A stretch of 41,625 bases of DNA from Candidatus Thorarchaeota archaeon (lineage in GTDB: Archaea; Asgardarchaeota; Thorarchaeia; Thorarchaeales; Thorarchaeaceae). The translations under genes were made by a program, and so were the position numbers. The stretch is from assembly GCA_030612005.1 (NCBI GenBank), contig JAUWOU010000012.1, positions 1-41,625 of the forward strand, given 5' to 3'. How positions within the stretch are numbered: the stretch's first letter is position 1; each line of letters starts with the position of its first letter. Below the pieces are notes generated by a model that saw only the letters and a program-made list of their open reading frames with translations, did not search any database and had not been told where the DNA came from. Shown here piece by piece: positions 14,945-21,632 of this stretch.

Positions 14945-15241
14945 AATTGCGATGGGTAGGGCCGGGTCGTTTGGCGCGACCTGTTATCGGTAATGTCAAT
15001 AGCCGAGGCCAGTAACCTGCATCGAGAATGAACCGGAACGTCGTTGGGTCCAGCTGCAGGACGTTGACATGCGGTCTCTGGAGTCTGTCTCTGACATACC
15101 AGCATTCGTAGGTTTGCTGTGATTGTCATAAACTTCCGAACCGAGTCAGGCCCTGGCGGGAACAGCTCTAAGGAAGAGTGGTGGAGCCCCAGAGGTGGCC
15201 GCATTGAGAATTGCGCTGATCAGCCCTTCGATTACCGACAT
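14945..15241 (+). ncRNA. Signal recognition particle RNA (archaeal 7S RNA)
   Basis: 5' domain TAGGGCCGGGTCGTTTGGCGCGACCTGTTATCGGTAA...AGCCGAGGCC matches the archaeal helix 2-4 signature. Domain IV GAACCGAGTCAGGCCC-TGGC-GGGAACAGCTCTAAGG is at about 15138-15172. Ends approximate. Confidence 0.85.
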
Positions 15242-15323
15242 TCGGAATGTGGGAGCTGTCGCACCTTCTTATCGTTAACCTACAACAATGTTTAAGAGAA
15301 AAATACGGTCAGCACGTTCTCAA

Positions 15324-15466
15324 GCTCAGGTATCCAAGCCTGGTATGGAGCTGGATTGCTATAGGCAGCTATACGCAGTCCTGCAAACATCCAGTGTGCT
15401 TTGCACTCGAGAGTTCAAATGACTTCATGATTTCCATGAGGTTTGAAATTCTCTCCCTGAGCGCCA
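15324..15466 (+). tRNA. tRNA-Ser(GCT) with two BHB introns and encoded CCA
   Basis: Acceptor GCTCAGG/CCTGAGC + G73 + CCA; D-stem TCCA/TGGA; anticodon stem CTGGA/TCCAG, loop TTGCTA-A; variable arm GTGC-TTT-GCAC; T-arm GAGAG-TTCAAA|T-CTCTC. Intron 1 is 15362-15388 (37/38; BHB central helix TTGC/GCAA, bulges TAT and ACA). Intron 2 is 15420-15449 (T-loop; central helix TTCA/TGAA, bulges AAT and ATT). Predicted mature length 86 nt. Confidence 0.92.
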
Positions 15467-15474
15467 TCTTTTCT
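15454..15474 (+). repeat. 21-bp att-like repeat, copy 1 (3' end and trailer of tRNA-Ser)
   Basis: TCCCTGAGCGCCATCTTTTCT, identical to 17092-17112. Confidence 0.85.
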
Positions 15475-15546
15475 CAGATTATGTTTGGATACGTGAAACG
15501 AAAGAAGCAATAATACCAATACTGTAAGTATTCTTGTGGTTGGGTT

Positions 15547-16563
15547 ATGGAAGAGTCACAGGAGAAGAGAGAGTGGATATATAGAAACAGAAAGCTGGTT
15601 GCTGGTTTAGTTATCATATTCATACTATTACAAGTGACCATTACTGTATTGACTATATCATTGAATGATGATGAAATTTCTGATATCAATGTTCCAAGAT
15701 CGACTATTCCAGATAGCTGTGTCTATCCTGCTACCTATGATATTGAATACAATACATCCTATTGGATTAGAGGTAACTATGTTCCACTCATCAATATATC
15801 AGAAGCAGCAGCAGTTGATGCTGCTATGACATTTCTCACTGTGTATCTACCCGAAGAATTGTTGACAGGGCTTCGAGTAGACACAAATAATGAATTTTGG
15901 CCAGGCAGGCCAGAACTCACTACAGACTGTTTCCCTCGGTGGGGAATGACTCTTATTTCTGATTATATGAGAGCAAATGTATGGGTTAATGCCCTAAGTG
16001 GAAAAGTAGTACAATTCAGTCTGGGTTCCTATAATACATCAGTCTTTGTATTTGAAAGCGTTGAAACAGTGGAAGAAACTGAAAGCATTGTTATAGATTT
16101 CCTTCAATCACAAAATTATACATTACTCCCAGATGCAGTCTATGATGGCACTGATCTATCATCATTATCAGAATATGCTTACCACACTCTGACATTTCAT
16201 CAGGTGGTTGATGAGATTCTAATAGGCATTGGAAAAATTACTTTCCATATTGATGCGACTTATGGATTAATCAAATATTTCAGATACAGATGGATTGATC
16301 TTGATGAGATTCCAGTAGATAGAATTCTTCCCGTTGGAGAAATCCACAATATTGTACTGGAAGCAGACAATGATACATTTTTGATTACAATTCGAAATAC
16401 TGAGCTGCGCCTTAACATAATCGGGTTTGATCCAGATTCATCGGATTTTGTAATGCGACTTGTGTATGAAGTAACATTGACGCCGATTTGGGGAGTTGGT
16501 GGAGATTTGTACACAGTTGATGCTATATCAGGTGAGATAGTAAGTATAGATGTATTGTTTTAA
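15547..16563 (+). CDS. Membrane-anchored/secreted hypothetical protein; an in-frame stop precedes a C-terminal TM anchor
   Basis: 338 aa with N-terminal signal/TM (VAGLVIIFILLQVTITVLTIS). After TAA (16561-16563) the same frame continues SSFLGVYEPYFGVAAMLLVAVVLSGAVRVVKRRRLSISME* to 16686. Confidence 0.75.
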   Translation: MEESQEKREWIYRNRKLVAGLVIIFILLQVTITVLTISLNDDEISDINVPRSTIPDSCVYPATYDIEYNTSYWIRGNYVPLINISEAAAVDAAMTFLTVYLPEELLTGLRVDTNNEFWPGRPELTTDCFPRWGMTLISDYMRANVWVNALSGKVVQFSLGSYNTSVFVFESVETVEETESIVIDFLQSQNYTLLPDAVYDGTDLSSLSEYAYHTLTFHQVVDEILIGIGKITFHIDATYGLIKYFRYRWIDLDEIPVDRILPVGEIHNIVLEADNDTFLITIRNTELRLNIIGFDPDSSDFVMRLVYEVTLTPIWGVGGDLYTVDAISGEIVSIDVLF

Positions 16564-16710
16564 TCATCATTTCTGGGAGTTTATGAACCTTATTTTGGAG
16601 TTGCAGCTATGCTTCTGGTGGCAGTGGTGTTGTCGGGAGCTGTTCGAGTTGTAAAAAGAAGACGATTATCAATATCTATGGAGTAACATTTTGCAAAGAT
16701 TTATCATTAA

Positions 16711-17058
16711 GTGACAAAATGTGATGTTGGAGGGTTCGTAACGTTGCAACAAGAAGCGCAGCAGATGTTCGGTATTAGTGGAATTGGAATTCTAGGTATG
16801 GGTCTGGTAATTGTTATCGTGCTGTTAGTTATCGGGTTCAGAGAGAAAGAAGATGTTTTCAGAAAAGAACGATTCATTCGAGCAGCAGGGGTAGTACTCG
16901 GAGTATTGATTATAGTCACAGGATTCACTTGGTATAGCACCGTGGTGGCAGTCGCTACAACACCTATGACCTTTGAGGATGTACTCATCATAACTGGGTT
17001 TTCTTCCATAGGCGGTCTGATTTCAGGCATTTCCTGCTATTTTCCAATTAATAAATAG
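16711..17058 (+). CDS. Small hypothetical membrane protein
   Basis: 115 aa with three or more hydrophobic segments. Confidence 0.5.
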   Translation: MTKCDVGGFVTLQQEAQQMFGISGIGILGMGLVIVIVLLVIGFREKEDVFRKERFIRAAGVVLGVLIIVTGFTWYSTVVAVATTPMTFEDVLIITGFSSIGGLISGISCYFPINK

Positions 17059-17091
17059 AAAGTAAATCTTAGGTTGTAATCTGAAAGTTAT

Positions 17092-17112
17092 TCCCTGAGC
17101 GCCATCTTTTCT
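17092..17112 (+). repeat. 21-bp att-like repeat, copy 2 (detached tRNA-Ser 3' fragment)
   Basis: TCCCTGAGCGCCATCTTTTCT, exact copy of 15454-15474 without the rest of the tRNA. Confidence 0.85.
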
Positions 17113-17265
17113 TCTTCATTGTGTTAGGAGTTGGTGATTGCTAGGGTTAGCTAGTCCGGTCTTTTGTCATATGGGCTATATTATGAAGACCTGAACGTGG
17201 CTGCAGTGGTGTGGTATCTATTGGGAAGAATCGTCAGTAACAAGCCAATCATCACTGGAAGTGAC

Positions 17266-17757
17266 TTAATCTAATTTTAAGGGTGGAATCAACTTAGCTA
17301 GAATTAGAAAAATGAGAATAGAAATTGGAAGTGGAAAATCAGCAGGAGGATTAAGGTGCATTCCGGGCACCGGAAAAATTGTATAGAGCAAGTTACCACC
17401 GTTAAGACTTACAAAAATATAGATTTCGATAAAGACTCCAACTAGTAGTGTCCGAGTAAACGATGTTTGATTATTATAAAATCGGTAAATCATCAAAAAG
17501 AAAAGATACTTGATAAATGAATTTAAAAATATGAGTTGATCGAGTGCAAGAAAGAATCTGAGAGGTTCGTCTTGTTCTATCCTAATGACCCATGTTAGTG
17601 ATTTGATTTCCAAGAAATTGCGAGTGTGGATGAACGCAGGTGTCACCAGTATAACAATGAGCATAACTAATGAGATAATTATTGGACTGACGAATCTCTT
17701 ACTCGATTGATTATTCTCTTCCATAAGACAACTCCTCTTCTTTTCAGCCTCCGCCAT
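17266..17757 (-). CDS. Hypothetical multi-TM membrane protein
   Basis: 163 aa with several hydrophobic helices. Confidence 0.6.
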   Translation of the reverse strand: MAEAEKKRSCLMEENNQSSKRFVSPIIISLVMLIVILVTPAFIHTRNFLEIKSLTWVIRIEQDEPLRFFLALDQLIFLNSFIKYLFFLMIYRFYNNQTSFTRTLLVGVFIEIYIFVSLNGGNLLYTIFPVPGMHLNPPADFPLPISILIFLILAKLIPPLKLD

Positions 17758-17853
17758 AATTTCATCTGAGAGCTCTTGATATGTATCATAAGTGTATTGA
17801 CTAACAAAAAATGAACCACTCGAATACCAGCTTTCAAGCTAATCACAAGCTAA

Positions 17854-17934
17854 CCACTTCTTCTAAGACTGAATCTGATTCATTCTAAGCGGTGTTATCA
17901 AGGAGAAGAAAGAGAAAAGGAGAAGGCGAGAGAT
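17854..17934 (+). repeat. About 80-bp direct repeat, copy 1
   Basis: CCACTTCTTCTAAGACTGAATCTGATTCATTCTAAGCGGTGTTATCAAGGAGAAGAAAGAGAAAAGGAGAAGGCGAGAGAT; near-identical to 19391-19474. Confidence 0.85.
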
Positions 17935-17989
17935 GTAAATTCCAAGAGTTTAAGATAGCTGAGTGTGTTTTCAACATTAAGGGGTTTCA

Positions 17990-19372
17990 GTGTTCGAAAG
18001 AGTAGCGTTGCTAAGAAAATACATTTCACTTCTATCCAAGAAGGAAGTGAAGAGATGGCTTATTCTAATGGCTATAGCGTTTGCTTTCTACTTCCCTTTG
18101 GGGGTAAGTGGTACTTGGTATAGACCTCTGAATGCAACATTCAACATAGCTGGAACCATTGGTTGGCTTTTAGCTACTGGATTTCCTTTTGTGATTGGAG
18201 CATCACTGATTCTCTGTTCAGATCAGACACGAAATAACATTGTAGCGTATACACGAACCCACGAAAAAATGAAGTTCTCATATCTCTTTGTTTCTTTCAC
18301 AGTATTGACCCTAGTAGTTATGGCAGCTGCATCCTTTGCAGGTCTACTAATTGCTGTTAGTGTATCTGGGAATATAGCAATCCTTGGTGTTCTTCCCCAA
18401 TTAGTAGGAATCACATTGTTCCTCTCCTTGCTTCTGACCCCAATCTATGCACTAATTGCCATTGAATTCGATAGTATGAGCAAGTCAATTGTAATAGGAT
18501 TCTTCCTATCCATTGCACTTGTTGCTACAACAGGTCAACCAGGATTTCCCATAAATTACCCCGAGGTTTCGTTCTTTGGACCTGCACATCTACTATCTGC
18601 ATTACTGTTCATCTCTATAGGCGCTTATGGAAATTACAGTGCAGAATTTTTTGTTGGGACTCTCTTTCAACCAATTCATGTGGTTGCTCCAATCCTAGTG
18701 TGGAGTTTCATTTCGATTGTTTGCTATTACGTGGCAAGAAAGGTGTTCTCCAACAACCTATCCCGATGGATTAAGGAGAGGGAAGGTTGGCTCTCAAGTG
18801 GCCAGTCGAAAACAGAACTGGATGATTCAACCCTACCTGCAAATCTTCCAACAATTCGAAAAGAGCTTTATAAAAGACAGAGAAAAGCTGTGGTAGTATC
18901 TGTTGCCATCATTATTCTGATTTTTATCGGGGGATTCGGATATACACAAGTGAAACAGGGGGAATGGACCCAAGTTGTGTATGAGAGTCCATCTGAAGGG
19001 GAAACAGTTGCAATTGGAGACTGGTTGCAGGGATCTTTTACGGGAGTTGAATCTCCATCATCGATAATGTTAGGAGTGACATGTCAGGGTAGAATTCTTG
19101 ACTGGAGTGGTGGGAGTGGATATGTGTATTTTACATTCGAACATAGAGCTATGACCTTAAGTGAATTCCAAGGTCTTAATGAAACTGAGTTCACCCGATT
19201 ATTTGATTCATCAGAAAGCGGAAATCATGGTGTCATTGGGACTTTTAGTAGCGGTCTTGGTGGGCCAATTCATGACTCAGAGTATGTTTGGGTTCTGCGA
19301 TTTAATGATGTCAATGAACGAACTTCTGGATCTGTAGATATTTGGTTTCAGGTGATCCTCAGAGCTTTCTAG
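17990..19372 (+). CDS. Multi-TM membrane protein with a C-terminal extracytoplasmic domain
   Basis: 460 aa; about 7 hydrophobic segments, a further TM (VVVSVAIIILIFIGGFGYTQV), then a soluble beta-rich domain. Confidence 0.75.
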   Translation: MFERVALLRKYISLLSKKEVKRWLILMAIAFAFYFPLGVSGTWYRPLNATFNIAGTIGWLLATGFPFVIGASLILCSDQTRNNIVAYTRTHEKMKFSYLFVSFTVLTLVVMAAASFAGLLIAVSVSGNIAILGVLPQLVGITLFLSLLLTPIYALIAIEFDSMSKSIVIGFFLSIALVATTGQPGFPINYPEVSFFGPAHLLSALLFISIGAYGNYSAEFFVGTLFQPIHVVAPILVWSFISIVCYYVARKVFSNNLSRWIKEREGWLSSGQSKTELDDSTLPANLPTIRKELYKRQRKAVVVSVAIIILIFIGGFGYTQVKQGEWTQVVYESPSEGETVAIGDWLQGSFTGVESPSSIMLGVTCQGRILDWSGGSGYVYFTFEHRAMTLSEFQGLNETEFTRLFDSSESGNHGVIGTFSSGLGGPIHDSEYVWVLRFNDVNERTSGSVDIWFQVILRAF

Positions 19373-19390
19373 CAAATCTCACCCTCAGTG

Positions 19391-19474
19391 CCATTTCTTC
19401 TAAGACTGAAAATCTGATTCATTCTAAGCGGTGTTATGAAGGATAAGAAAGAGAAAAGGAGAAGGCGGAGAGAT
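19391..19474 (+). repeat. About 80-bp direct repeat, copy 2
   Basis: CCATTTCTTCTAAGACTGAAAATCTGATTCATTCTAAGCGGTGTTATGAAGGATAAGAAAGAGAAAAGGAGAAGGCGGAGAGAT. Confidence 0.85.
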
Positions 19475-19783
19475 AGAGTCTATCTCAGCGCCTGTAATAG
19501 GAGAAAGCATGTGTGATTGCGTGAGTGGAGATTGGCTTACTAGGAGCCTTTCTCTTGGTTGTCTTAGCGAACGCCATGATAATCTACCTCACAACGGTCG
19601 CGTAAGCGTAAGCAACAGCATCGGTAGATACCTTGCGTTTGTTCTTCAGCACGGAGTTAGATCGGTTGTTAGTTGTTAGAGCCATAATAGTTCACAAGAT
19701 ATACTGCTCGTATTTAGTATATATACCAAAGGCACTATTGAGGGTCACAATTGAGAGTCACATGTTGTGACTATTGCAGAACG

Positions 19784-20203
19784 TCATTTAATGTGCAATC
19801 TAGTGTCACAGAATGGACAAAGAAAAACATCTGTTTCAACAGGAATTGCATTGACCAGCTCAAAGGACATGCCACAGTTTGAACAGCGCACAGTATCACT
19901 GAGATTTGCTCGTTCAGTAGGAAGAGCATGTTTTCGCATTGATTCGAGAATTCGATCATCTTCATTGATGTCAGTAGGAGCGATGTCGCGACCTTGTGCC
20001 CAGCGAAATGTAACGTATAGCAAGAACACTATCATAGGAATGTAAAGAAAGGTATAGAGAAAGATGGCTTCAAGTGGGACACTTATGATGATACCATAAA
20101 TACCGAGGATGCCTAGGACTAGAACAAGAACAAAGAGCATCCACCTACCCATATTTGAACCATTGTTTTGGTATGAATCATCATAGTAATCATCGTTCAT
20201 CAT
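19784..20203 (-). CDS. Membrane protein with C-terminal zinc ribbon
   Basis: Two TM segments, then CSNCGMSFELVNAIPVETDVFLCPFCDTRL. Confidence 0.7.
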   Translation of the reverse strand: MMNDDYYDDSYQNNGSNMGRWMLFVLVLVLGILGIYGIIISVPLEAIFLYTFLYIPMIVFLLYVTFRWAQGRDIAPTDINEDDRILESMRKHALPTERANLSDTVRCSNCGMSFELVNAIPVETDVFLCPFCDTRLHIK

Positions 20204-20321: not shown

Positions 20322-21632
20322 TTACAATTTTCTTTTAGTGACCTTAGTCACAACACCAACAGCTACAGTCATACCCATGTCACGGACAGCAAACCTGCCG
20401 AGTTGTGGGAATTTCTTGTAGGATTCGATGACCATTGGTTTTAGAGGTACCAACTTGGCAATCATGGACTCGCCTTTCTTGACAAAGTCTGGTTTCTCCT
20501 CAGTGACCTGTCCAGTAGCTTGGTCAAGCTTCTGTAAGATCTCGTCGAACCTGCAAGCGACCTGAGCGGTGTGTGCATGAATGACTGGTGTATAACCAAC
20601 AGTGATAGCACTTGGGTGCTGGATGACCATCACCTGACCGGTATAGTCAGCAGCAACTGTGGGTGGTTTATCTGTTGGACCAGCAACATCTCCACGACCT
20701 AGGTCTTTTCTATCAATACCTCGTATATTGAAACCGATGTTATCACCAGGTACTGCCTCAGGCATTATCTCATGATGCATCTCGATAGACTTGACTTCTC
20801 CAGTCTTGTTCGGGGGCATGAAAGTCACTTCTTGTCCTGACTTCAGGATACCAGTTTCAACACGACCTACTGGTACTGTACCAACACCCTTGATTGAGTA
20901 TACATCATTGATTGGTATACGCAAATCCTTGTCAGTTGGCTTCGGTGGAAGTGCAACTAAATCAAGTGCTTCAAGAAGGCAGGGACCATCGTACCATGGT
21001 GTGAATTGGGGGGTCTTCTCCTTCAGGTTAGCAGCATCGAGTGCTGAAGTTGGAATGAATGGAACTGTACCTTCCTTGTAGCCAATAGTGGCTAAGAATC
21101 CACCAACTTCGTCTTTGATCTCATTGTATCTATCTTCGCTGTACTTGACGCTATCATCGTCGAACTTGTTCACCGCCACAATTAAGCTTGGTACTCCAAG
21201 AGTCATAGCAAGGTAAGCATGCTCCTTAGTCTGACCACCAGGTCCGATACCAGCTTCAAACTCTCCTCGCTTTGCAGACACAACAAGCAGACCAACATCA
21301 GCCTGTGAGGCGCCAGTGATCATGTTCTTGATGAAGTCTTTATGTCCGGGAGCATCGATAATTGTGTAGTAGTATTTGTCAGTGAGGAACTTAAAGAAGG
21401 CAATATCAATTGTGAGGCCTCTTTCTCTCTCTTCCTTGAGTCTGTCAAGTGCGAAAGCCCAAGCCCAGGATGGTCTTCCTAGTGCCTCAGCCTCAGCTTT
21501 GTGTGCCTGAAAAGTTCGCTCATCTACTGCACCGGTCTCGTATAGCAATCTGCCCGTCATAGTGCTTTTACCGTGGTCTACGTGCCCTATGACGACGAGA
21601 TTGAGGTGCTCTTTTTCTCTTTTTTTGCTCAA
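20322..21632 (-). CDS. tuf: Translation elongation factor EF-1 alpha
   Basis: LNLVVIGHVDHGKSTMTGRLLYETGAVDERT; DAPGHKDFIKNMITGASQAD; NKFDD. Confidence 0.97.
   Translation of the reverse strand: MSKKREKEHLNLVVIGHVDHGKSTMTGRLLYETGAVDERTFQAHKAEAEALGRPSWAWAFALDRLKEERERGLTIDIAFFKFLTDKYYYTIIDAPGHKDFIKNMITGASQADVGLLVVSAKRGEFEAGIGPGGQTKEHAYLAMTLGVPSLIVAVNKFDDDSVKYSEDRYNEIKDEVGGFLATIGYKEGTVPFIPTSALDAANLKEKTPQFTPWYDGPCLLEALDLVALPPKPTDKDLRIPINDVYSIKGVGTVPVGRVETGILKSGQEVTFMPPNKTGEVKSIEMHHEIMPEAVPGDNIGFNIRGIDRKDLGRGDVAGPTDKPPTVAADYTGQVMVIQHPSAITVGYTPVIHAHTAQVACRFDEILQKLDQATGQVTEEKPDFVKKGESMIAKLVPLKPMVIESYKKFPQLGRFAVRDMGMTVAVGVVTKVTKRKL

Follow-up and report, generated by a model that had tools for sequence, protein, structure and literature searches.

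The window analysed here, the whole 41,625-nucleotide stretch of contig JAUWOU010000012.1 (C132 in our labelling) from the Candidatus Thorarchaeota assembly GCA_030612005.1, carries a tRNA-Ser(GCU) gene interrupted by two introns. This gene, the docking site, is followed by about 4 kb of foreign genes that are partitioned into three intervals by copies of the tRNA gene's own 3' end (Table 1). Below, we argue that these intervals probably represent small integrated cassettes and that similar structures recur behind many other tRNA genes. The genome from which the window was taken is denoted G000, and its relatives are labelled G001 onward.

Table 1. Features of the tRNA-Ser(GCU) locus in the window (ORF, open reading frame; SRP, signal recognition particle)
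Feature	Position	Strand	Basis
Archaeal SRP RNA gene, ancestral upstream neighbour	14950..15261	+	Rfam RF01857, 104.4 bits; same neighbour in many relatives
tRNA-Ser(GCU), two introns, docking site	15324..15466	+	Cloverleaf after in-silico intron removal; alignment with relatives
Near 21-mer copy, tRNA 3' end plus trailer	15454..15474	+	Exact match
A338, secreted/membrane protein, interval 1 cargo	15547..16563	+	ORF
B115, small membrane protein, interval 1 cargo	16711..17058	+	ORF
Far 21-mer copy, exact, closes interval 1	17092..17112	+	Exact match
C163, membrane protein, interval 2 cargo	17266..17757	-	ORF
Decayed repeat unit: D460-like gene end, ruined tRNA end, native-flank sequence	17829..17934	+	Alignment with 19363-19474; repeat search
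D460, multi-pass membrane protein, interval 3 cargo	17990..19372	+	ORF
Degenerate far copy of tRNA end	19382..19401	+	Repeat search; intact in G013
Ancestral flank, two minus-strand ORFs plus their terminator-like repeat	19402..19700	.	Similar sequence behind tRNA-Ser in relatives
E139, ancestral downstream neighbour	19784..20203	-	ORF; gene order in relatives
EF-1A gene, ancestral downstream neighbour	20322..21632	-	Pfam; gene order in relatives

The docking gene was missed by both ARAGORN and Rfam in its unedited form because it carries two introns, one in the anticodon loop (15362-15388, 27 nt) and one in the T loop (about 15421-15450, 30 nt). When both were removed in silico, ARAGORN called tRNA-Ser(gct) with a full cloverleaf and the CCA end at 15466, and alignment with relatives that have no T-loop intron showed an uninterrupted T arm, so that the tRNA-Ser call of the initial annotation proved correct. 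The relatives differ among themselves in the anticodon, T-loop and D-loop introns of this gene.

The exact recurrence of a 21-mer, made of the tRNA-Ser 3' end plus trailer, was reproduced, the chance expectation being 0.01. Its 20-mer core, with up to 3 mismatches allowed, was found nowhere else in the genome except for one 3-mismatch match on another contig, and the 21-mer gave 0 matches in the viral collection and 0 in the genome collection (which may omit our own genome). The degenerate copy that had been claimed at the far border of the block is real as well: a 4024-bp contig of G013 holds D460 (84% protein identity), followed at the place that corresponds to the window copy at 19382 by CCCTGAGCGCCATCTTTTC, a 19/19 match to the tRNA-Ser end; beyond it, the native flank extends through EF1A. 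Given this intact orthologous copy, the degenerate copy of the window was once closer to exact, and the joint occurrence of D460, the tRNA-end copy and the native flank suggests that D460 may have been inserted before the G000 and G013 species diverged. As for the weaker trace that had been noticed near 17850, it is indeed a relic of the tRNA end, with the CCA at about 17854, but it forms the central part of a unit of about 110 bp that is present twice and runs from the end of D460 across the tRNA-end relic into the native downstream flank.

In the relatives, a DNA search with the SRP RNA plus tRNA-Ser genes gave matches in 36 of 59 genomes, own genome included, and the fetched loci revealed the ancestral order NDK, aIF5B, SRP RNA, tRNA-Ser, E139, EF1A, some loci being rearranged. 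The distance between tRNA-Ser and E139 is less than about 0.8 kb, with EF1A next, in 13 relatives (G002, G003, G004, G006, G007, G010, G011, G012, G014, G015, G025, G027 and G035). The A338-B115-C163-D460 block is absent from every relative's tRNA-Ser locus compared, apart from D460 with its tRNA-end copy on the G013 contig and a D460-like fragment in G031. The initial annotation had proposed successive insertions, or very small satellite elements, at a tRNA attachment (att) site, and had named conserved synteny of the whole block as an argument against mobility; such synteny was not observed, and the ancestral order in the 13 relatives supports the proposal. Sequence similar to the ancestral flank that borders the block in the window follows tRNA-Ser immediately in G001, G004 and G010 and after about 250 bp in G012. 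The two tiny minus-strand ORFs of this flank (19485-19577 and 19584-19685; 30 and 33 aa) have C-terminal parts that look similar by eye, and counterparts of both occupy the same place in G004, G010, G012 and G013.

Other relatives harbour inserts of their own. Larger, unrelated inserts of about 2-4 kb lie behind tRNA-Ser in G016, G017, G022 and G034, and these encode, in one case each, BON and CBS proteins, a major facilitator superfamily (MFS) protein and a CLC channel, an S9 peptidase plus a BON protein, and an octopine-type dehydrogenase plus a B12-binding protein. The last pair is the cargo of the G034 insert, which arose independently, measures 3.66 kb and is bounded by a 35-nt repeat of the tRNA-Ser end with one mismatch. 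A short-chain dehydrogenase is found behind tRNA-Ser in G036 and, as judged by eye, an oligoendopeptidase-F-like ORF in G005. When the tRNA-Ser loci were scanned for repeated ends (28 of 29 scored, window included), only the window and G034 stood out, G042 aside. The repeated tRNA-Ser end of G042, considered as a cassette border, was rejected since it looks by eye like a second tRNA.

Relatives of the cargo also occur at other places. On contig C189 of our own genome, a relative of B115 (65-68%) is followed by TGAAATTCTCTCCCT...CCAT, which is the tRNA-Ser end with the tail of the T-loop intron, and then by 40 bp of flank, with a tRNA-Gly gene adjoining. In G005, D460 (85%) is placed in a conserved small RNA (sRNA) region of box C/D-like appearance, with a 38-bp partial copy of the sRNA behind it, and the next gene looks by eye like the YCF48/BNR gene in the tRNA-Gly cassette of G000; the insert-free form of this sRNA was seen in G000, G013 and G012. 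The sRNA lies behind a YkgJ-like gene (both names given by eye; L162, L161 and L163, about 2160-2220), and the region of this gene was matched in 16/16 genomes of the genus, the sRNA being read in four of them and the D460 insert in G005. Within the family, relatives of A338, B115 and D460 are present in 21, 9 and 25 of 47 genomes, respectively, own genome included, and none of D460 or B115 was found in viral contigs. A338 has a weak PepSY match, under the Pfam cut-off, and C163 has no family in Pfam or PHROGs. The G+C content of intervals 1-3 is 0.377, 0.368 and 0.409, and that of the rest is 0.424.

The structure first seen at this single locus recurs at many other tRNAs. A scan covered 129 tRNAs, listed from Rfam, in five genomes: G000, G013, G034 (a single contig of 3.16 Mb, 86% estimated completeness), G036 and G038 (a member of another family), with those of G013, G036 and G038 taken from the fetched stretches. 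Each tRNA's own last 27 nt plus trailer served as the query over 4 kb downstream, and a copy was accepted at a score of at least 13 if it was not an annotated tRNA. The initial counts of tRNAs with a downstream copy of their own end were 8/21 in G000, 4/22 in G013, 7/34 in G034, 1/26 in G036 and 0/26 in G038. Two doubtful rows were then dropped, namely G034 1795292 (a weak tRNA call) and G013 119084 (which looks like a real second tRNA), and one was restored by eye, the G013 tRNA-Ala(CGC) that ARAGORN had tagged as tRNA-Cys with a 159-nt intron, which yielded 8/21, 4/22, 6/34, 1/26 and 0/26. The antisense strand and shuffled sequences both gave 0/129, and random 40-mers from the same loci gave 131/7061 (1.9%). 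Judged by this last rate, G000 (p = 2e-9), G034 (4e-5) and G013 (7e-4) therefore exceed the background, whereas G036 and G038 stay within it. When the score threshold is raised to 20, 8 tRNAs remain in G000, 3 in G013, 2 in G034 and 0 in both G036 and G038, and G034 taken alone is then non-significant.

Comparison of sister genomes shows that the structures arose by insertion. The initial annotation had suggested looking for empty sites, and pairs of empty and filled sites were found between G013 and G000 at tRNA-Met, tRNA-Gly and tRNA-Ala. At tRNA-Met, G013 has no insert; the stretch of its flank from -17 to 1055 aligns with G000 starting at the far copy, with 90% identity over 1073 bp. At tRNA-Ala(CGC), the far copy of G013 is 65/65 identical to the tRNA end of G000. 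The most informative case is tRNA-Gly(UCC), where the G013 tRNA with 4 kb of its flank aligns to G000 at 89.6%, the alignment starting 40 nt within the far copy, while the working, near tRNA of G000 is only 84.5% like the native one. Hence, the near end is incoming and the far end is native, which means that the end of the gene was replaced, the hallmark of reciprocal recombination with DNA that bears a tRNA end. At tRNA-Leu(UAG), the flanks of G000 and G013 are 89% alike and the cassettes differ (730 bp vs 2228 bp).

The layout of the inserts was compared over 19 tRNAs and 24 intervals, with the decayed window copy treated as a border. Interval lengths range from 140 to 3682 bp, and in 21 of the 24 intervals ORFs span 65-98% of the length, mostly as one ORF; three intervals contain two or three genes. 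The exceptions with low ORF content are G013 Thr-1 (140 bp, no ORF), G013 Thr(CGT) (16%) and G000 Leu(UAG), where a 225-aa minus-strand gene runs into the tRNA and so was missed by the ORF count. The cargo comprises NosD-like, YCF48/BNR-like, JAB-domain, luciferase-like, DUF362, octopine dehydrogenase and B12-binding proteins along with many unannotated membrane proteins, and is mostly unrelated from one tRNA to another, apart from the NosD-like proteins at G000 Ala and G034 His, which are alike. Most left edges of the copies fall within the T loop or T stem, at a distance of 18-29 nt from the CCA end (the most extreme values being 12-13 and 51), and the right edges lie at the CCA or up to 16 nt past it. 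Among the intervals with a clear gene, all 5 at tRNA-Leu sites are directed towards the tRNA and 16 of the 17 at other tRNAs away from it (Fisher p = 2e-4). Inspection by eye revealed no motif that the cassettes share next to the copies (no statistical test was applied). At tRNA-Thr(GGU) (L200 and L215), all three end copies share trailer letters within a genome and differ between the sister genomes, as if the copies had been homogenised.

Given these observations, we propose, at a probability of about 0.65, that the window block consists of small cassettes, most with a single gene, that were integrated in tandem at the 3' part of tRNA-Ser(GCU), and that this process has operated at many tRNA genes of this Thorarchaeota genus and family. 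Under the best reading, the cassettes are small non-autonomous integrative units that resemble cis-mobilizable elements (CIMEs) and accrete in tandem at tRNA 3' ends. Insertion at tRNA ends, end replacement at tRNA-Gly and stacking of the inserts are shown by the comparisons above. As to the mechanism, incoming DNA with a gene and a matching tRNA 3' end, perhaps in the form of a circular intermediate, would cross over with the chromosomal tRNA gene; the working tRNA would then be completed by the incoming end, and the displaced native end would stay at the far side as a repeat, such that repeated events would stack cassettes. Another element could supply, in trans, the tyrosine recombinase that catalyses the reaction, a proposal against which the odds are somewhat tilted.

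Several observations weigh against the array of integrated cassettes. No integrase had been reported in the block by the initial annotation, and the four interval proteins indeed have no integrase match in Pfam or PHROGs; more broadly, the proteins scanned, a subset of those encoded in the 24 intervals, included no recombinase. Neither an excised circle nor reads were seen. The assembly of G034 gave no match to PF00589, and of 23 integrase loci examined out of 36 rows, none sits beside a genuine tRNA or a copy of a tRNA end, as checked with the tRNA ends of the five genomes. The length of the repeat, about 19 to 65 nt, is unlike that of a single dedicated att system, and the many different docking tRNAs go beyond the usual range of one integrase. 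Furthermore, D460 of G005 sits at the box C/D-like sRNA (as read by eye) instead of a tRNA, and the tandem Thr cassettes are mutually paralogous, so that local tandem duplication could also yield them. In our own genome, contig C132 has no match to PF00589, the three matches of the genome being on other contigs; an integrase of this genome on contig C253 (L157 1125-1616) is broken by an in-frame TGA. The tRNA-Ser that ARAGORN placed beside an integrase of G019 (L290) is false, as it sits within the integrase ORF.

The absence of PF00589 matches in G034 and of tRNA-end copies at the 23 integrase loci leads us to retain, as a serious if unlikely rival, ordinary homologous recombination of the RadA type, whereby circular DNA or imported pieces that bear a tRNA end would recombine over 20-65 bp of identity with no dedicated recombinase. 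The variable length of the repeats and the many docking genes, including the box C/D-like sRNA in G005, fit this explanation, and the distribution of the tRNA-Thr trailers is what gene conversion would give. However, the borders cluster at the T loop or T stem and at the CCA, as they do for known tRNA integrases, and 20-25 bp is short for homologous recombination. Erosion of viruses or plasmids by deletion of the integrase and other genes appears improbable. tRNA genes are favoured integration targets in archaea (PMC8371274), and Dehalococcoides has islands that are devoid of integration modules (PMC3146451); yet ORFs fill at least 65% of 21 of the 24 intervals, mostly as one gene, no fragment of an integrase was seen, none of the 8 proteins scanned matched PHROGs, and neither D460 nor B115 has relatives in viral contigs. 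Transposition with target-site duplication, for example by a casposon-like enzyme acting at tRNA ends, would account for the flanking direct repeats, and casposon integration with such duplications has been described for archaea (PMC6563490), but it seems highly unlikely because the two tRNA-Gly copies are unlike and the far one alone is native, which contradicts a target-site duplication, the repeat length is not fixed, and the cargo scanned, including that of the window, contains no Cas1 and, as far as scanned, no transposase. Equally implausible is an assembly artefact at short repeats: most genomes are bins of several contigs, the 21-mer is close in length to small assembly k-mers and low coverage is indicated by the record names of two contigs, but the same structures occur in the single-contig G034, the repeats exceed 21 nt at several tRNAs, the flanks resume collinearly with those of sister genomes, and the arrays of G013 and G000 share D460 with its tRNA-end copy.

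Returning to the integrated cassettes, one might speculate further, although we consider this extension rather doubtful, that Thorarchaeota possess a genome-wide cassette system without a recombinase in cis, in which single genes drawn from a common pool that changes quickly (NosD-like, YCF48/BNR-like, small membrane, JAB and other proteins) would dock at tRNA genes and, in at least one case, at a box C/D-like sRNA gene, the end of the RNA gene serving as the site of recombination, much as attC does in integrons. If the cassettes are what we propose, Asgard archaea, the closest known relatives of eukaryotes, would have a route to gain single genes at predictable places, and a simple scan for tRNA ends would list the recent acquisitions of each genome. 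A testable question is which enzyme joins the tRNA ends, given that the inserts and the single-contig assembly of G034 contain no detectable tyrosine recombinase.

Two observations on the neighbouring genes may be added. Both G005 and G013 have the SRP RNA gene in reversed orientation at its place between aIF5B and tRNA-Ser, with a similarity of only about 75% (L045 1824-2131 and L056 315-622), and G013 keeps an SRP remnant in the old orientation, which looks like replacement of the SRP RNA gene. The EF1A gene is seemingly in pieces in the bins of G016 (L049) and G002 (L048).

With tRNA-targeted elements that encode tyrosine integrases (archaeal SSV-type, pNOB8-type and others), the cassettes share the restoration of the tRNA 3' end by incoming DNA, the displacement of the native end as a direct repeat and the edges at the T arm and CCA. 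Border repeats, an empty site and end replacement were all found here, whereas an integrase within the element was not; the cassettes are 0.14-3.7 kb long, mostly carry one gene, contain no detected integrase or fragment thereof and occupy many tRNAs per genome. With CIMEs, they have in common the att-like borders, the lack of detected recombination or transfer genes and the stacking at one tRNA. Known CIMEs derive from, or are mobilised by, integrative and conjugative elements (ICEs) or integrative and mobilizable elements (IMEs) at the site, a link also made in PMC3146451. No ICE or IME was found at the sites described here, and the cassettes belong to this class only in part. The closest likeness is to the ssrA islands of Dehalococcoides, which are arranged in tandem, have borders made of the 3' end of an RNA gene and insert at the T loop; 15 of them have no integration module and 16 have modules with serine recombinases, whereas the vcr islands combine integration modules of 9-11 kb with 3.8 kb of cargo, and all these islands use one gene, ssrA, unlike the many tRNAs used here (PMC3146451). 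Among Asgard elements, the aloposons and HeimV1 of Heimdallarchaeum are likewise located at tRNA sites, but aloposons carry giant tandem genes and HeimV1 a viral integrase (PMC8813620). Integron gene cassettes have been reported in Asgard archaea, too (PMC9668308), and are similarly compact one-gene units stacked behind a docking site; here, however, no IntI was found in or next to the array, C132 being without PF00589, and the border is a tRNA end rather than attC (no attC model was run). In the open PubMed Central literature, judged by titles and the openings of abstracts, we found no description of single-gene cassettes delimited by tRNA ends in Asgard archaea. Accretion at tRNA genes as such is already known, and what is new in the case of Thorarchaeota is the lack of a recombinase, the size of the inserts and the number of tRNAs at which they dock.

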